Positions 15,130 through 20,796 of a DNA stretch of 64,000 nt are shown here, piece after piece; the stretch's first letter is position 1, and each line of letters begins with the position of its first letter. Made by a program: the position numbers and the translations under genes. The DNA is from Spirochaetes bacterium ADurb.BinA120 (lineage in GTDB: Bacteria; Spirochaetota; UBA4802; UBA5368), in contig MVZN01000002.1 of assembly GCA_002069125.1 (NCBI GenBank), positions 62,001 to 126,000 on the forward strand. Reading direction: 5' to 3'. Below the pieces are notes generated by a model. The model searched no databases, was not told the DNA's origin, and saw only the letters and a program-made list of their open reading frames with translations.

Positions 15130-15531
15130 TCAGGCGTAAAAGGCTTCCGGTGTGATAGCAATCCCCGGGAAAGCCCTTAGGATTTTTTTATCCGTAGTCA
15201 CCAGAGGAGCATTCATGCCGAGAGCGAGCGCGACGAATTCGCAGCCATAAGAGGAACACCCGCTTTTCGATGCGAGGCTCAGTACGCTTTCAGTCGATAC
15301 CGAGTATTCGCCTCTCTTCATAAACGACTCCACATGCCCGGCGAGAGTGACGGCGTCCCGGATCGTCAGGATTCGCTTCCTCACATACAGGCCGAGTACG
15401 CTTCGAAACTCGCTTTTCCAGAGGACCGGAGCGATCCAGTGCCGGTCCCTCTCGAACACGGCTTCGACGCTCGCTGTCCGTTCTCCAGTCAGGAAATAAT
15501 ACGATATTATATTTGTGTCGACGACAATCAC
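15130..15531 (-). CDS. PIN-domain toxin, VapC/FitB-like, with a missing catalytic Asp
   Basis: 133 residues, usual for VapC/FitB PIN ribonucleases. Asp5 (VVDTN), Glu41 (WKSEFRS) and Asp114 (VTTDKK) occupy three of the four expected acidic positions. The third, normally the Asp of a YDxxF/Y motif, is Gly96 here (SYGCEF); the codon GGC is one base from GAC. That change may weaken or abolish nuclease activity. The start overlaps the antitoxin stop by four bases (ATGA), the usual coupled arrangement. Family call is firm; activity is doubtful. Confidence 0.85.
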   Translation of the reverse strand: MIVVDTNIISYYFLTGERTASVEAVFERDRHWIAPVLWKSEFRSVLGLYVRKRILTIRDAVTLAGHVESFMKRGEYSVSTESVLSLASKSGCSSYGCEFVALALGMNAPLVTTDKKILRAFPGIAITPEAFYA

Positions 15532-15770
15532 CGACGCCCCTCGTTTTTGCCGCGATCGATAATCGAATCGTTTAATGGAAAACGCCGCGTCTTTGCCCTG
15601 TACTCGGCCGCTACCTCACGGAGGGAACCGGCACTTATGTCCGCTTCGTCCAGAGCGCGTTCGACACAGATCAGGATCTCGCTGTTTATGCTTCGGCGTT
15701 CGTCCTTCGCCCGTTTTTTCAGGCGTTCGTATAGATCGTCAGGAATGCCCTTCAGTGTTATGGCCCGCAT
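15528..15770 (-). CDS. FitA-like ribbon-helix-helix antitoxin
   Basis: 80 residues from the ATG at 15770, which has GAGGAG upstream. A longer reading from 15815 is excluded because that codon lies inside the promoter at 15803-15831. The N-terminus MRAITLKGIPDDLYERLKKR and SINSEILICVERAL form an Arc/FitA ribbon-helix-helix DNA-binding fold; the C-terminal 40 residues, with Arg-Thr-Lys-rich YRAKTRRFPLND, would wrap the PIN toxin. It should neutralise the toxin and repress its own operon through the palindrome in the promoter. Confidence 0.85.
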   Translation of the reverse strand: MRAITLKGIPDDLYERLKKRAKDERRSINSEILICVERALDEADISAGSLREVAAEYRAKTRRFPLNDSIIDRGKNEGRR

Positions 15771-15802
15771 TTTTAGCGCCTCCTCAGGCAAGATATGGTT
15801 CC

Positions 15803-15831
15803 ATAATAGTTTCATTTTGAAACCATGTCAA
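15803..15831 (-). promoter_or_regulatory. Toxin-antitoxin promoter with operator palindrome
   Basis: On the minus strand TTGACA (15831-15826) and TATTAT (15808-15803) are exactly 17 bases apart, a near-consensus sigma70 promoter. The spacer contains GTTTCATTTTGAAAC (15809-15823), two perfect 6-base arms around TTT, a likely operator for the ribbon-helix-helix antitoxin. Bound protein would cover both promoter elements. The predicted transcript start is near 15796, 26 bases ahead of the antitoxin ATG. Confidence 0.75.
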
Positions 15832-15967: not shown

Positions 15968-18646
15968 ATGATCAAAAAAACCTCCATTCTTACGCTGGCT
16001 GTACTCGTATCGATAATAACGAGCGGCTGCACAGGAACGAACGCTTCATCACAGGGGGCGATACAGTCCGCCTATAACGAGCTGTACGGGAACGTGGAAG
16101 GGGAAAGGCTTAACATCGTCTCCATAATCGATAAGCTGTCTCACCCCCAAGCCGGTCCATCGGATGCCAGGATCAAGAAGGCCGTATATACGATCGATTC
16201 CAAATACAAAAAGGATAAACTCATCTTCAAGTCCCTCGACTACAAAGCCCTGGGCGGGCAAAAGCTCGCCGTAGTTGGGAAAAGGGGCGTCAAACTTTAC
16301 CGCACCATGGAAGCCAGGGAAACAATAGCGGATCTTCCTCTTGGAGCCGTGCTCCCTCTTTTGCGAGAAATCAAAAACAAGGGCTACAGGGACGAGGACG
16401 GATACTGCGACGGGATTTTCGATTTCAAAGACGAAAAAAACTATTGGTACGAGACCTCATTCGAAGGCAAAAAAGGCTTCGTGTTCGGATCCTTTCTCGT
16501 GTTAGGCGAGGATTACGATGTATTCGAATCCTCATATACTCAGGCCGCCGTGGTAAACGACGAGCTCTGCGTAAAACACAAGGACAACGAGACCGAAAAG
16601 TACGTCAAGCTCGGCTATTATTACACCAAACCGCAAAAGGCCCCCTCCTTTGTAAATTTTAACGGCCGCATGAATCTAGCAAAAAACTCCCAGGCCTCCC
16701 TTATAAAGAACAGGATCGCGCTGGAAAAGGTGGCATACTCCGAATATGAGCCGTTTTTAATGTTAGGATACGAAAGCAACCGGCCGGACGACATGCTGGC
16801 CCTGTACAGCATGATGCATAACGACAGGACCGCGACGAGCTTTATTAGCACGGACCTTCTGGTCCACTCCCTTCATCTGCTTTTCGACCGCATGCTCCAG
16901 GATACCGAGACCAGGAGGCTTTTACCCATACTTAAAACGCTTACTAAGGCCTACTACGGCAGAATAGCCGACCTGGAAAATAATGACGCCAAAAAGCACC
17001 GCGCCTACACCGAAGCCATCGAGAAGATGAAGAAGTACTTCCTGGTGGCAGGGGAGCTCCTCAACCTGAAGCTCGCCCCGCGCTCGTCATACCCTGCCGA
17101 TGTATCGGCCGAAATAGCCCTTATAAATGCCGCTGCCGGGTTTAACACCTCACCCATCTTTGGGTACAGGGAAGACTACTCCCAGTTCAAAGCGAGAGGG
17201 CACTATACAAAAAATGACGACTTAAAAAGCTACTTTAAGGGTATGGTGTGGTTCGGAAGGCTGCACTTCTACTGCGTCAGCAAACACCCTGACAGGGCCA
17301 TGCTGGAGAATTCAATAAGGCTTACCCGCTCGGCCTTACTTCTTACAAAAATCGCCAGAGACAACCCCGACATCCTCGCCTCGTGGCGGGCGCTTTCCCT
17401 TCCCATCGGATACATGGTGGGCGAGTCGGACGATTATACTCTCGACCAATACCTCTCCATATTTAGAGGCGTGGATTTCGCCAACTTCGAAAAATGGGTC
17501 GATGATAAAAAGAACATTCAGACCTTTATAATCAGGGCAAACGCCGAGCTAAAGCCGCCGGCGATTTCGGGAAACACGCTTATGCAGAGCGGTGTGCTTT
17601 CGGCCAACAGCCCGGAGGCCCCGGCGGGCTTCCGGTTCCTCGGCCAGAGGTTTACGCTCGATTCGTTTATTCATAACGCGCTTTCCAGCCCCAGACTTGG
17701 CGGTAGAAATATGGTAAAAGGGCTCGACGTTATGGGCGCCTTGGGAAGCAGGCCTGCGGACAGGCTGCTCGGCGAAGAAAAGAAGCGCTATCCCGGATAC
17801 GAGGCCGCTTACAGAGAGCTCGGCAGAACCGTCAATGGATACTCCGAGCTCGACTGGAAAAGGACCTTCTACAACAGCTATCTAAAAATAATCGGAGAGA
17901 TCTCCCGTTTCGATTCGAGCCTGCCGTTTTATTTTACGGACGGCGACGCCTGGAACACCAAATCCCTGCTTACTGCGCACGCCGCATGGGCGGAGCTACG
18001 CCACGATACCATACTCTACGTAAAGCAGAGCTATGGAGAAAAGGCAGGCCCCGGCCCCTGCAAGACATTCAGCGTCGAAAAACCTAAAAGGCCCATAGGG
18101 TACATAGAACCGAACTTAGGCGCACTTTATTGGATTCGATATATATCCAGAAGCGGAGCCGGGTATCTCGCCGACCTGGGCCTTATGACCGAAGAATACG
18201 CAACTAAGTTCAGGGAATTCTCCGAACTCATCGACGACGCCGTCGTTATTGCGGAATTGGAGGCGGCGGACAAAAGGGTAAGCGATAGCCAGAACGAGTT
18301 CATCTATTCAATTCCCTATAGGCTGTCGAATATCGTCGTCCCCATCGACGGCAACGTCGCCGACACCGAGGAGCTCAAGATGGCCCTCATCGCCGATGTG
18401 TACACCGATTCGGAGAACGGGCTGGTGCTCGAGGTGGGAACGGGCATTCCATACAGGATGCACATCGCGCTTAACGACGGACAGGGCGGAAAGAGGATAG
18501 CGACCGGCTATATTTTCAGCTATTATGAATTTACCCGGCCCATGTCCGACCGCCTGAACAACGAAGAGTGGAAGAGGATGGTTTATTCTAAAAAACCGGA
18601 AACCGACAGGCTCGGGCCCGGCTGGGCGAAAAAAATCCTGCCCTGA
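15968..18646 (+). CDS. DUF3160 family lipoprotein
   Basis: 892 residues. The signal peptide ends in a lipobox, IITSGC, with Cys21, so the protein is expected to be lipid-anchored in the envelope. The body matches DUF3160: residues around ATSFISTDLLVHSLHLLFDRML are the family hallmark, followed by a long helical region and a C-terminal beta region (YRLSNIVVPIDGN). The first 180 residues contain an SH3-like stretch (KLYRTMEARETIADLPLG) ahead of the main domain. Biochemical function is unknown. Its stop is three bases before the start of the Memo-family gene, so the two form an operon. GAGG precedes the ATG. Confidence 0.85.
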   Translation: MIKKTSILTLAVLVSIITSGCTGTNASSQGAIQSAYNELYGNVEGERLNIVSIIDKLSHPQAGPSDARIKKAVYTIDSKYKKDKLIFKSLDYKALGGQKLAVVGKRGVKLYRTMEARETIADLPLGAVLPLLREIKNKGYRDEDGYCDGIFDFKDEKNYWYETSFEGKKGFVFGSFLVLGEDYDVFESSYTQAAVVNDELCVKHKDNETEKYVKLGYYYTKPQKAPSFVNFNGRMNLAKNSQASLIKNRIALEKVAYSEYEPFLMLGYESNRPDDMLALYSMMHNDRTATSFISTDLLVHSLHLLFDRMLQDTETRRLLPILKTLTKAYYGRIADLENNDAKKHRAYTEAIEKMKKYFLVAGELLNLKLAPRSSYPADVSAEIALINAAAGFNTSPIFGYREDYSQFKARGHYTKNDDLKSYFKGMVWFGRLHFYCVSKHPDRAMLENSIRLTRSALLLTKIARDNPDILASWRALSLPIGYMVGESDDYTLDQYLSIFRGVDFANFEKWVDDKKNIQTFIIRANAELKPPAISGNTLMQSGVLSANSPEAPAGFRFLGQRFTLDSFIHNALSSPRLGGRNMVKGLDVMGALGSRPADRLLGEEKKRYPGYEAAYRELGRTVNGYSELDWKRTFYNSYLKIIGEISRFDSSLPFYFTDGDAWNTKSLLTAHAAWAELRHDTILYVKQSYGEKAGPGPCKTFSVEKPKRPIGYIEPNLGALYWIRYISRSGAGYLADLGLMTEEYATKFREFSELIDDAVVIAELEAADKRVSDSQNEFIYSIPYRLSNIVVPIDGNVADTEELKMALIADVYTDSENGLVLEVGTGIPYRMHIALNDGQGGKRIATGYIFSYYEFTRPMSDRLNNEEWKRMVYSKKPETDRLGPGWAKKILP

Positions 18647-18649
18647 CAA

Positions 18650-19513
18650 ATGGGCCTGCGGATTTTCAAATGCTCCGTTCTCATGCTCTCCCTCGTCGGC
18701 TCATGCGGGCGCGGGGACGTGGCCGACTGCATATCGAACACGACGGTAGTCTCCGAAAAGCAACTAATGGAGCTCAGCTCATCGGCGCCGCTGCCGGCCG
18801 GCGTGGACTTTAAGCCGGCATCGCGCATCAGGCCTTTCAGTGGGACCACAAGCCACCACCTTCTGTGCCGCCATGTGATCGATAGATGGTTTCAAAACCT
18901 CGCCGAGCTAAGGGAGGTGCGGACCTTCGTCATCATAAGCCCAAATCATGGGAGGCTTGGCGCCCTGCCTGTTTCATTGACCTGCCGTAGCTGGAAGACA
19001 GCCGGCAAAACGACGCGAACCAACGTCGACCTCGTCGGAATAATTTTAAGGGAGCTCGAAATCCAAACGGACGACGTCGCCTTTGGAAACGAGCACGGCA
19101 TCGAAGCCCTCCTGCCCTTTGTAAACAAATATTTTCCCAAAGCCGATATCGTGCCCATCCTGCTGGATGAAAAGCAAAGGCATGTGCCGCTCATCATGAA
19201 GCTGACGGACTCTCTGCATCGCATTTTTAAGGCAGACCAAAAAGCCTTCCTTCTGCTTTCGGTGGACTTTTCCCACAGGGGCGACGCAGCTATGACCGCC
19301 AAAAACGACCGAAGATCGCACAAAGCGCTCGCCTCGATGGGAAAGGGAAAGAGTGCCGTATCCGACAACAACGGCGGCCTCATGGTAATGTTCGAGCTTT
19401 GCGAAAGGATGAATGTCGCAAACACTCATTTCTTCTGCCATACCGATTCGGCAAAATTCGAGCCGGAAGCGGCCCTGGACATAACGAGCTATTTTTTCAC
19501 CTTCCAGTATTGA
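18650..19513 (+). CDS. Memo-family protein (AmmeMemoRadiSam B) with lipoprotein signal
   Basis: 287 residues. Memo features: an N-terminal His pair (TSHHLL), SPNHG, NEHGIEALLPF, SVDFSHRG and FFCHTD. These align in order with the metal/active-site His and Cys residues known from human MEMO1 (H49, H81, H192, C244). Unusually, the N-terminus is hydrophobic and ends in LVGSC (Cys19), a plausible lipobox, so the protein may work outside the cytoplasm. Memo proteins resemble extradiol dioxygenases; a redox role with copper or iron has been proposed for the family. It follows DUF3160 by three bases and converges on the AMMECR1 gene with a 17-base overlap. Confidence 0.85.
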   Translation: MGLRIFKCSVLMLSLVGSCGRGDVADCISNTTVVSEKQLMELSSSAPLPAGVDFKPASRIRPFSGTTSHHLLCRHVIDRWFQNLAELREVRTFVIISPNHGRLGALPVSLTCRSWKTAGKTTRTNVDLVGIILRELEIQTDDVAFGNEHGIEALLPFVNKYFPKADIVPILLDEKQRHVPLIMKLTDSLHRIFKADQKAFLLLSVDFSHRGDAAMTAKNDRRSHKALASMGKGKSAVSDNNGGLMVMFELCERMNVANTHFFCHTDSAKFEPEAALDITSYFFTFQY

Positions 19514-20165
19514 TGTCCGCAAACCTTCGTCTCATAAATACGGTATTGGCCCTGTAAATTTCTGCGTCCTTCTCCCTGTATTGTGTTTCGGGGATGCCCC
19601 CCTTTCTGCAGATCGCGCGCAGAAATTCCTCTTTCGAATATCCTCTCTCTTGAATTATCTGGCCCTGCATCACGGCCTTCATGTTCAGGTGTTTGATGTA
19701 GATCGTGTGAATGCCCGGCGTAAAATCGAGATGGTTTCGTATTCTCAAGAGCCTGTCGATAACGGTTATTTCTATCTCGAGGGATGGAAGCTCCTCCGGG
19801 CCGAGCCTTTTGTGGCGTTTGTCGAAAAACGCGGCGTTTACGGCAGCCGCCTTTACGGCCTCCTCCGGGGACGAGACCCCTCTGATGAATCCGATACAGC
19901 CCCTCTCCCGTCCTCCCTTTAAAAGCCTTACGAAAACGCCTGTGTCGTCCTCTCCGTATTCGATCTCTCTGAAGCCGCCTTCCACACCCGTTTCCATGGC
20001 CTCCACCAGCGAAAGCTTCACCGCGGCAAAAAGGGCATCGAACGACTCCGGCGGATATTTAATCTTTAGAGCTTCGTAACTGGAATCGGAACACGCGAGG
20101 CAAAGTATAAAAATTCCCGCGAAAAGCGGTCTACTTAATCGAGAGCTCCGAGATACAGGTGTCAT
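19497..20165 (-). CDS. AMMECR1-domain protein (AmmeMemoRadiSam A), probable lipoprotein
   Basis: 222 residues. The AMMECR1 core is clear: GVFVRLLKGGRERGCIGFI carries the signature RGCIG, followed by AVNAAFFDKRH and LEIEITVIDRL. The N-terminus MTPVSRSSRLSRPLFAGIF leads to CLACSDSS (Cys25), a loose lipobox, so this copy also seems exported. The start overlaps the end of the upstream NADase-type-domain gene by 35 bases, and the end overlaps memo by 17. AMMECR1 and Memo occur together in the AmmeMemoRadiSam trio; the radical-SAM member is not in this window. Function is unknown. Confidence 0.85.
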   Translation of the reverse strand: MTPVSRSSRLSRPLFAGIFILCLACSDSSYEALKIKYPPESFDALFAAVKLSLVEAMETGVEGGFREIEYGEDDTGVFVRLLKGGRERGCIGFIRGVSSPEEAVKAAAVNAAFFDKRHKRLGPEELPSLEIEITVIDRLLRIRNHLDFTPGIHTIYIKHLNMKAVMQGQIIQERGYSKEEFLRAICRKGGIPETQYREKDAEIYRANTVFMRRRFADINTGR

Positions 20166-20796
20166 TGTATTTCGTCCCCCTGTAGAGTTCGGAAATCTCC
20201 AGGCTTAGTATATAGGCAACTCGTATGGATTCCATCAAACCCTCCAGTGGCTCCTCGGCCCTGGCCCAGCTTTCCGACTCATCGGCCGCTTTCCTCCCGA
20301 GCTTTTCGAGCTCCTTCCAGTTGAACGGAAACCGTAAGCTCTGCTCGTTCATGGTGTCTTTTAAAACGAGTTTAGCTGTCGGCGCAAAGGGCCATACGAC
20401 ATATTCCTCACCGATCTCGGTGATGTGTTTCATCGAGGTAAATCCCGCATAGGCCGTAACCTTGAAGCTCCTTACGCGGTTATTCGCCAGGTGGAGATTT
20501 TTGTTCTTCGCCAGGCCGTTTATGATTTTAATCGACTTCGCTCCGGGTTTCACGAGAACATATATCTTTTCGCCAATGCCCCCCTTGCCCACGGCCCAGC
20601 AGGTGGCCGGATCTCCATCGGCCATTTTTCTCACCGAGTACATGCCGCTGCGCTGAAAACGGGCGTCATCGTCGTCCGAGGGATCGGAGAGCGTCGCCGT
20701 CGCCTCCATATTTCCGACCAGAAAAATGGTCTGTTCCGCTTTTAAAAGACAGGGAAGGACAAAGAGCGAGAGCAAGAGAGGGACTATTTTTTTCAT
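20131..20796 (-). CDS. Exported NADase-type glycan-binding-domain protein
   Basis: 221 residues from the ATG at 20796, which has GAGGTG upstream and a strong promoter at 20828-20856. A signal peptide (MKKIVPLLLSLFVLPCLLKA) is followed by a discoidin-like domain: MADGDPATCWAVGKGGIGE, then VKPGAKSIKIINGLAKN and NNRVRSFKVTAY. This pattern matches the NADase-type glycan-binding domain common in spirochaete exported proteins. The C-terminal third (SLEISELYRGTKYNDTCISEL) continues the beta fold. It heads the operon with AMMECR1, which overlaps its last 35 bases. It probably binds a glycan or other surface ligand. Confidence 0.75.
   Translation of the reverse strand: MKKIVPLLLSLFVLPCLLKAEQTIFLVGNMEATATLSDPSDDDDARFQRSGMYSVRKMADGDPATCWAVGKGGIGEKIYVLVKPGAKSIKIINGLAKNKNLHLANNRVRSFKVTAYAGFTSMKHITEIGEEYVVWPFAPTAKLVLKDTMNEQSLRFPFNWKELEKLGRKAADESESWARAEEPLEGLMESIRVAYILSLEISELYRGTKYNDTCISELSIK

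Follow-up and report, generated by a model that had tools for sequence, protein, structure and literature searches.

A conserved DUF3160-linked exported Memo paralogue with a predicted carboxylate metal site in Spirochaetota

Introduction

Memo and AMMECR1 are conserved from bacteria to humans, and we know of no established biochemical function for either. The most relevant prior work is reportedly that of Burroughs et al. 2019, where an earlier mention of an exported Memo with DUF3160 is possible; our literature search found no paper on this combination. Among the closest described systems is AmmeMemoRadiSam (TIGR04335, TIGR04336, TIGR04337), which includes a radical SAM protein.

The iron site of human MEMO1 is formed by H49, H81 and C244. 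The protein binds iron and copper; enzymatic activity has been tested for, and none is known (PMC11081632). In extradiol dioxygenases Glu stands at the position of the MEMO1 Cys, in a 2-His-1-carboxylate layout (PMC11081632). DUF3160 of other phyla is listed as the "secreted enzyme" arCOG03316 (PMC4158269), the only paper in which the literature search met this domain.

Gene content of the locus

Four genes are considered here within the window (the whole stretch of 64,000 nucleotides analysed). Pfam bears out the identities and positions given to them in the initial annotation:

15968..18646, plus strand: putative DUF3160 lipoprotein, 892 aa (PF11369, 537 bits, cut-off 25, Pfam); predicted lipobox Cys21, SH3-like beta domain at about residues 95-180 (weak fold match only), DUF3160 domain at residues 243-878
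18650..19513, plus strand: exported Memo paralogue, 287 aa; predicted lipobox Cys19 (PF01875, 55.8 bits; TIGR04336, 77.8 bits)
19497..20165, minus strand: putative exported AMMECR1 lipoprotein, 222 aa; predicted lipobox Cys25, conserved Arg-Gly-Cys90 (PF01871, 96.4 bits)
20131..20796, minus strand: secreted NADase-type (F5/8-like) domain protein, 221 aa (PF25302 / NF047619)
19497..19513: tail-to-tail overlap of the Memo and AMMECR1 genes, 17 bp

The Memo protein scores above the TIGR04336 cut-off of 26 bits. AMMECR1 passes PF01871 but, with 88 bits, falls below the cut-off of 99 for TIGR04335 (protein A). Its PDB relatives are 1zq7, 1vaj and 1wsc; Memo, DUF3160 and the NADase-type protein had no match in PDB sequence searches. 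The last protein scores 51.2 bits with NADase_transloc (PF25302, cut-off 27) and 76.9 bits with NADase_discoid (NF047619, cut-off 38).

The genes are tightly packed. The Memo start codon lies 3 bp past the DUF3160 stop, and the overlapping gene ends described earlier are confirmed, AMMECR1 and the NADase-type gene sharing 35 bp on the same strand. A 17 bp tail-to-tail overlap of Memo and AMMECR1 recurs in loci L022, L060 and L061, and one of 23 bp in L059. An Rfam search gave no matches. Promoter-like sites are as frequent as expected by chance and terminator-like sites a little more so, with no informative placement in either set.

Export signals were called by a rule-based scan for a basic N-terminus, a hydrophobic stretch and a lipobox Cys. 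DUF3160 ("..IITSGC21"), Memo ("..LVGSC19") and AMMECR1 ("..LCLAC25") satisfy its lipoprotein criteria and, judged by their N-termini, look like lipoproteins. The NADase-type protein has a plain signal peptide ("..LLKA|EQ"), judged by eye. Three lipobox-like cysteines and one signal peptide, as annotated, were thus recovered, and the scan supports export of Memo and AMMECR1, not cytoplasmic placement. Among the exported Memo proteins compared below, 44 of 46 rows carry a signal, 38 of these with a lipobox; the same scan found no export signal in the controls L009, L082 and L083.

Conservation of the DUF3160-Memo pair

The locus exemplifies a conserved module of envelope lipoproteins, built around DUF3160 and an exported paralogue of Memo, that is found almost always in Spirochaetota. 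The pair is conserved in 35 distinct loci, 34 from Spirochaetota (Treponema putidum and T. socranskii among the carriers) and one from Synergistaceae, and the linkage holds down to about 30% identity. It was recovered from both sides: DUF3160 adjoins each of the 24 short exported Memo genes that a search for Memo alone brought up, and a DUF3160-only scan found Memo at all 17 spirochaetal loci and at one Synergistaceae locus. At DUF3160 loci of other phyla Memo was a neighbour in 0 of 61. The linkage across genomes is therefore conserved and not random, and the exported Memo proteins form a clade apart from canonical Memo.

Passive adjacency, in which the genes merely drifted together and each lipoprotein keeps its own role, would fit the occurrence of DUF3160 without Memo in many phyla but is highly improbable given this linkage, the varied arrangement of AMMECR1 and one fusion.

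The NADase-type protein, which the initial annotation joined to the Memo/AMMECR1 system, was rejected as a module member. It is not beside the module in any other genome read and its domain is common in the order; it is a local operon neighbour of AMMECR1. The recurrent neighbours are CapA-type PGA_cap proteins, C39-like and transglutaminase-like cysteine-protease folds and a UPF0489-like domain, and they differ between lineages. CapA adjoins DUF3160 in L025, L060 and L123, and also the Memo-less DUF3160 of other phyla (L131, L134, L154, L160, L161).

The AlphaFold model of DUF3160 has a pLDDT of 83.2. A fold search with it against the PDB gave no match at E<=0.001, and the matches obtained were weak ones of SH3 type (dipeptidyl-peptidase VI, SH3 domain).

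Predicted metal site of the exported Memo

The AlphaFold model of the exported Memo (pLDDT 87.6) has human MEMO1 as its best Foldseek match (3bcz, E 4e-10), followed by the extradiol dioxygenases 3vsg, 8iq8 and 9j2l (E 2e-6 to 3e-5). Residues were compared over 46 exported rows, representing 39 distinct sequences, and 18 canonical Memo proteins:

18854..18856, plus strand: codon of His69, predicted metal ligand, equivalent to human MEMO1 His49; His in 46/46 exported
18947..18949, plus strand: codon of His100, predicted metal ligand, equivalent to human His81; His in 46/46 exported and 18/18 canonical
19265..19276, plus strand: codons of Asp206-Phe-Ser-His209, human Asp189/His192; Asp206 and His209 each in 46/46 exported
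19364..19366, plus strand: codon of Asp239, at the position of the MEMO1 metal ligand Cys244; Asp in 46/46 exported

The site residues are invariant across the 39 distinct sequences, with Asp replacing Cys throughout, and so are the second-shell residues E148, H149, D206 and H209. At the Asp239-equivalent position 15 of the 18 canonical proteins carry a Cys-Gly/Cys-Ser motif. Both hhalign and an ungapped offset test, best at offset 0, support the Asp239/Cys244 register. The metal-site His and Cys residues had been annotated as kept, and enzymatic activity as plausible on that ground; both His ligands are indeed kept, but the Cys part of the argument fails. An Asp as third ligand in every distinct sequence implies, at the level of aligned residues, a 2-His-1-carboxylate site of the layout known from working metal enzymes such as extradiol dioxygenases. 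That the module is conserved, exported and equipped with a carboxylate metal site is held to be very probable.

AMMECR1 and radical SAM

AMMECR1 is a less regular partner. It lies near DUF3160-Memo in 14 of the 35 distinct loci, in convergent or divergent orientation or fused to Memo (L090), and over half of the loci lack it within about 6 kb. The Gly-Cys of the Arg-Gly-Cys motif is conserved in all exported AMMECR1 proteins.

As annotated, the window contains no TIGR04337 radical SAM gene. Its loss was considered and rejected, for a genome search found TIGR04337 on contig C20. On C10 the genome has in addition a distinct canonical Memo+AMMECR1 pair, so the exported pair has not "moved" to the envelope out of the canonical trio, as had been proposed. 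TIGR04337 is present in 21 of 24 carrier genomes, and most carriers likewise keep a separate canonical Memo/AMMECR1. In L219, L220 and L221 an exported Memo-AMMECR1 fusion lipoprotein stands beside a radical SAM protein with a Tat-type signal and a membrane spermine-synthase-like protein; its Memo keeps the Cys ligand.

Possible function of the module

In the proposed site His69, His100 and Asp239 of Memo would hold a divalent metal, which may be Fe(II), Zn or Mn; this 2-His-1-carboxylate set would stand where MEMO1 has 2-His-1-Cys, and His209 would be a nearby acid/base. Memo could be an enzyme that uses this metal on an exported substrate. DUF3160 would sit in the same membrane, probably with an SH3-like domain, and may hold or co-process this substrate; AMMECR1, with its conserved Cys, may work on the product or be a specificity subunit.

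The recurrent neighbours listed above suggest that the substrate is an envelope polymer with peptide or amide linkages; since they differ between lineages, this assignment is weak. Of the 24 carrier genomes, 18 have neither COX1 nor cytochrome bd; every f24 (Treponema-type) genome belongs to this set, G275 alone excepted. O2 chemistry is consequently unlikely as the shared function of exported Memo; the scarcity of terminal oxidases among the hosts suggests an O2-independent reaction, hydrolytic or of lyase type. The best explanation as a whole, with about an even chance of being right, is an envelope enzyme that depends on a metal and has a substrate of peptide or polymer type. A fuller version stands a little short of even: here the 2-His-1-carboxylate catalytic centre of Memo was regained (or kept), and Memo would serve together with the lipoproteins DUF3160 and AMMECR1 in an envelope enzyme system for an exported polymer. 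The hydrolytic, amide-polymer reading is tentative and rather doubtful.

Alternatively, exported Memo could be a non-catalytic metal-binding or redox-protection protein capturing iron or copper in the envelope, with DUF3160 and AMMECR1 loading or anchoring it. Iron and copper binding by MEMO1, which has no known activity (PMC11081632), is consistent with this, but the invariant second shell suggests catalysis and no genes for metal transport were noticed among the module's neighbours; the proposal is unlikely.

A true extradiol-type dioxygenase, using Fe(II), the 2-His-1-carboxylate site and His209 as base to cleave an aromatic or catechol-like envelope compound, is quite improbable. The fold neighbourhood of MEMO1 and these enzymes, the predicted carboxylate ligand and catalytic His, and the COX1 and cytochrome bd of the window genome, where O2 can be met, argue for it; the lack of both oxidases in most carriers argues against it, as does the fact that no aromatic-catabolism genes were seen among the module neighbours.

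A split AmmeMemoRadiSam pathway, whose exported proteins would handle the radical SAM product outside the membrane, fits the frequency of TIGR04337 among carriers, the Cys kept in AMMECR1 and the fusion of the three relatives. It is very improbable, given the separate canonical Memo/AMMECR1 of most such carriers, the absence of Asp-type Memo beside this radical SAM family in the loci read, and two 97% complete genomes (G285, G289) with exported Memo and no radical SAM.

For the preferred reading, a metal-dependent envelope enzyme, an extracytoplasmic Asp-ligand clade with fixed partners would narrow the substrate to envelope material and provide a testable enzyme candidate. The module sets Memo and AMMECR1 beside DUF3160, itself a large uncharacterised family, in treponemes of the mouth and gut, and offers a testable clue to MEMO1 family function. 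If the catalytic centre was indeed regained or kept, ancestral MEMO1-family chemistry could be read from the module.

Comparison with known systems

The module shares with AmmeMemoRadiSam the linkage, and sometimes fusion, of Memo and AMMECR1 domains. It differs in being exported, in Asp for the Cys ligand and in its DUF3160 partner, the radical SAM gene lying elsewhere in the genome. The L219/L220/L221 system also exports Memo and AMMECR1, but with the Cys ligand and other neighbours. DUF3160 proteins of other phyla share the PF11369 domain; their 61 loci lack a Memo neighbour, and at least five have a CapA-type one.

LigB-type extradiol dioxygenases (aminophenol dioxygenase 3vsg, DOPA dioxygenase 9j2l) resemble exported Memo in fold and predicted 2-His-1-carboxylate layout, whereas exported Memo has Asp instead of Glu, is extracytoplasmic and occurs mostly in carriers without the oxidases searched for. 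Human MEMO1 (3bcz, 7kq8) is the best fold match, and both His ligands, Asp189 and His192 are kept. At about 14% identity, MEMO1 is cytosolic with Cys244, whereas its spirochaetal counterpart is a predicted lipoprotein with Asp239.

Gene organization and export signals

The four genes proposed in the initial annotation are each matched by Pfam and NCBIfam:

15968-18646, + strand, DUF3160 protein
18650-19513, + strand, Memo
19497-20165, - strand, AMMECR1
20131-20796, - strand, protein with an NADase-type (F5/8-like) domain

The first two genes are separated by 3 bp, and the last two overlap by 35 bp. Memo and AMMECR1 overlap tail to tail by 17 bp in the window and in loci L022, L060 and L061; in L059 the overlap reaches 23 bp. 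The surrounding genes are ordinary. On the upstream side are genes for a diguanylate cyclase and a histidine kinase; downstream come a DNA polymerase III delta'-type gene and one for methionyl-tRNA synthetase. Just upstream of DUF3160, a toxin-antitoxin-like pair (15130-15815, - strand; PIN-domain-like protein of 133 aa and Arc/antitoxin-like ORF of 95 aa) was recognized by eye.

A rule-based scan supported the suspected export of DUF3160, Memo and AMMECR1, each of which has a hydrophobic N-terminus and a lipobox cysteine in the window. Across the family, the same scan assigned signals to 44 of 46 exported Memo sequences (38 with lipobox) and to 43 of 47 DUF3160 sequences (38 with lipobox; two of the four without a signal are gene fragments), but to none of the cytoplasmic Memo/AMMECR1 controls L009, L082 and L083.

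Linkage of DUF3160 and Memo

Listing of neighbours across genomes demonstrated that the linkage recurs. With the window Memo as the only query against 296 genomes of the phylum, a short exported Memo was found in 24 genomes, directly adjacent to DUF3160 in every one. A DUF3160 alignment alone, run against 84,980 species represented by one genome each, gave 79 loci. Memo is present in all 17 spirochaetal loci and one of Synergistaceae (L123), immediately downstream of DUF3160 except in L090, and neighbours DUF3160 in none of the other 61. Pooled, the searches comprise 35 distinct DUF3160-Memo loci, seven being identical between the sets. Spirochaetal DUF3160 without Memo also exists (L026-L028, about 21% identity).

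The locus is absent from the four genus mates searched, and its nearest relative belongs to a different family (genome G031; 65% and 63% identity), which together suggest horizontal transfer or repeated loss. In this relative (L022:6019-8674), a frameshift or an assembly error near the 3' end breaks the DUF3160 gene into two overlapping frames.

Memo fold and predicted metal site

The AlphaFold model of the window Memo (pLDDT 87.6) best matches human MEMO1 (3bcz, E 4e-10), followed by aminophenol, DOPA and dihydroxyphenylacetate dioxygenases. MEMO1 binds iron by H49, H81 and C244; the C244S substitution abolishes binding, and LigB-type dioxygenases have Glu at the position matching C244 (PMC11081632). 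The expectation that the His/Cys site is kept proved half right: both histidines (His69 and His100) are invariant in 46 exported sequences (39 distinct), as are Glu-His 148-149, Asp206 and His209, but the cysteine position is occupied by Asp239, in place of the Cys-Gly/Cys-Ser motif seen in 15 of the 18 canonical sequences. Since automatic aligners place a gap just beside this column, the register was tested ungapped with the column left out. Offset 0 was best (-0.44 versus -0.68 for the next), and hhalign fixed the helix following Asp239 in the same register.

The exported Memo sequences form a clade apart from canonical ones (SH-aLRT 99). A long exported form (about 540 aa), which also has the Asp, branches next to this clade; DUF3160 was not seen near its four loci. 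It carries a C-terminal extension of unknown family and adjoins an exported protein of about 340-390 aa without a Pfam match.

Exported Memo and AMMECR1 forms, and a related UPF0489-like gene, outside the window
L078:5502-8293, long exported Memo next to exported protein
L079:2962-5582, long exported Memo next to exported protein
L080:5326-7901, long exported Memo next to exported protein
L081:5589-8308, long exported Memo next to exported protein
L067:8287-9696, AMMECR1 behind an exported domain of about 300 aa, 'HDRH...LDYHHD' motifs
L087:5767-7209, the same
L097:5-1492, the same
L090:2838-3737, UPF0489-like gene
L219:3692-6387, Memo-AMMECR1 fusion beside radical SAM
L220:3475-6229, Memo-AMMECR1 fusion beside radical SAM
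L221:3281-5930, Memo-AMMECR1 fusion beside radical SAM

Companion genes

Of the 35 loci, 14 have AMMECR1 no more than about 6 kb away (nine convergent, four divergent, one fused). The fusion, in L090, joins AMMECR1 (80 bits) to the C-terminus of Memo (40 bits) in one lipoprotein. In L067, L068, L076, L087 and L097, AMMECR1 is fused behind a domain of about 300 aa; L090 has a relative of this domain as a separate UPF0489-like gene (E 2.6e-12). The Gly-Cys motif is retained in all exported AMMECR1 proteins, with RGC in nearly all.

The DUF3160 model (pLDDT 83.2) matched no solved fold at E<=0.001; weaker matches indicate an SH3-like N-terminal domain. A CapA-type PGA_cap protein stands beside the DUF3160-Memo module in L025, L060 and L123 and sometimes accompanies DUF3160 in other phyla (L131, L134, L154, L160, L161). 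Other proteins adjoining the module are transglutaminase-like (L059-L061) or C39-like (L060, L061, L090).

Possible function

The sequences show export signals, linkage, a fusion, a predicted fold and invariant residues. The fold most readily suggests oxygen-dependent ring cleavage, but such chemistry is a poor fit for a function common to the carriers, few of which have the oxidases: cytochrome bd oxidase was found in six of the 24 carrier genomes, COX1 in two of those six, and neither in the remaining 18. The window genome has both. Two His and one Asp are predicted to hold a metal, and this centre would act on an exported polymer, probably of amide or peptide type. The hydrolase reading draws partly on the classification of the LigB fold among phosphorylase/hydrolase-like folds, a group that includes zinc exopeptidases.

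Relation to known Memo-AMMECR1 systems

No description of exported Memo with DUF3160 was found in the literature searched, which did not include Burroughs et al. 2019; PMC7159879 cites that work for Memo-Ammecr1 systems. A second, separate exported form occurs in relatives (L219-L221), namely a lipoprotein-like Memo-AMMECR1 fusion with the Cys ligand kept. It adjoins a TIGR04337 radical SAM gene with a Tat-like N-terminus (RRKFLK, RREFLG, SRKELL). Next comes a gene for a membrane protein that contains a spermine-synthase domain. An export signal on a radical SAM enzyme, here Tat-like by appearance, is unusual.

The window genome encodes a cytoplasmic-looking Memo and AMMECR1 pair on contig C10, another Memo match on C14 and another AMMECR1 on C29. 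This last gene, the third AMMECR1 (61 bits), is flanked by a VanW-like gene and a gene for a lipoprotein-like protein of 1790 aa (L011:884-7720). The genome-wide search for the radical SAM member located TIGR04337 on C20 (314 bits). It is present in 21 of the 24 genomes with exported-type Memo and absent from G285 and G289 (97% complete); G027 also lacks it, but this genome is only 69% complete. The earlier proposal that the pair had moved to the envelope is therefore not supported: the canonical trio is retained in the window genome, and its radical SAM member in most carriers, which makes the exported module a supplement to the trio and not its relocation.
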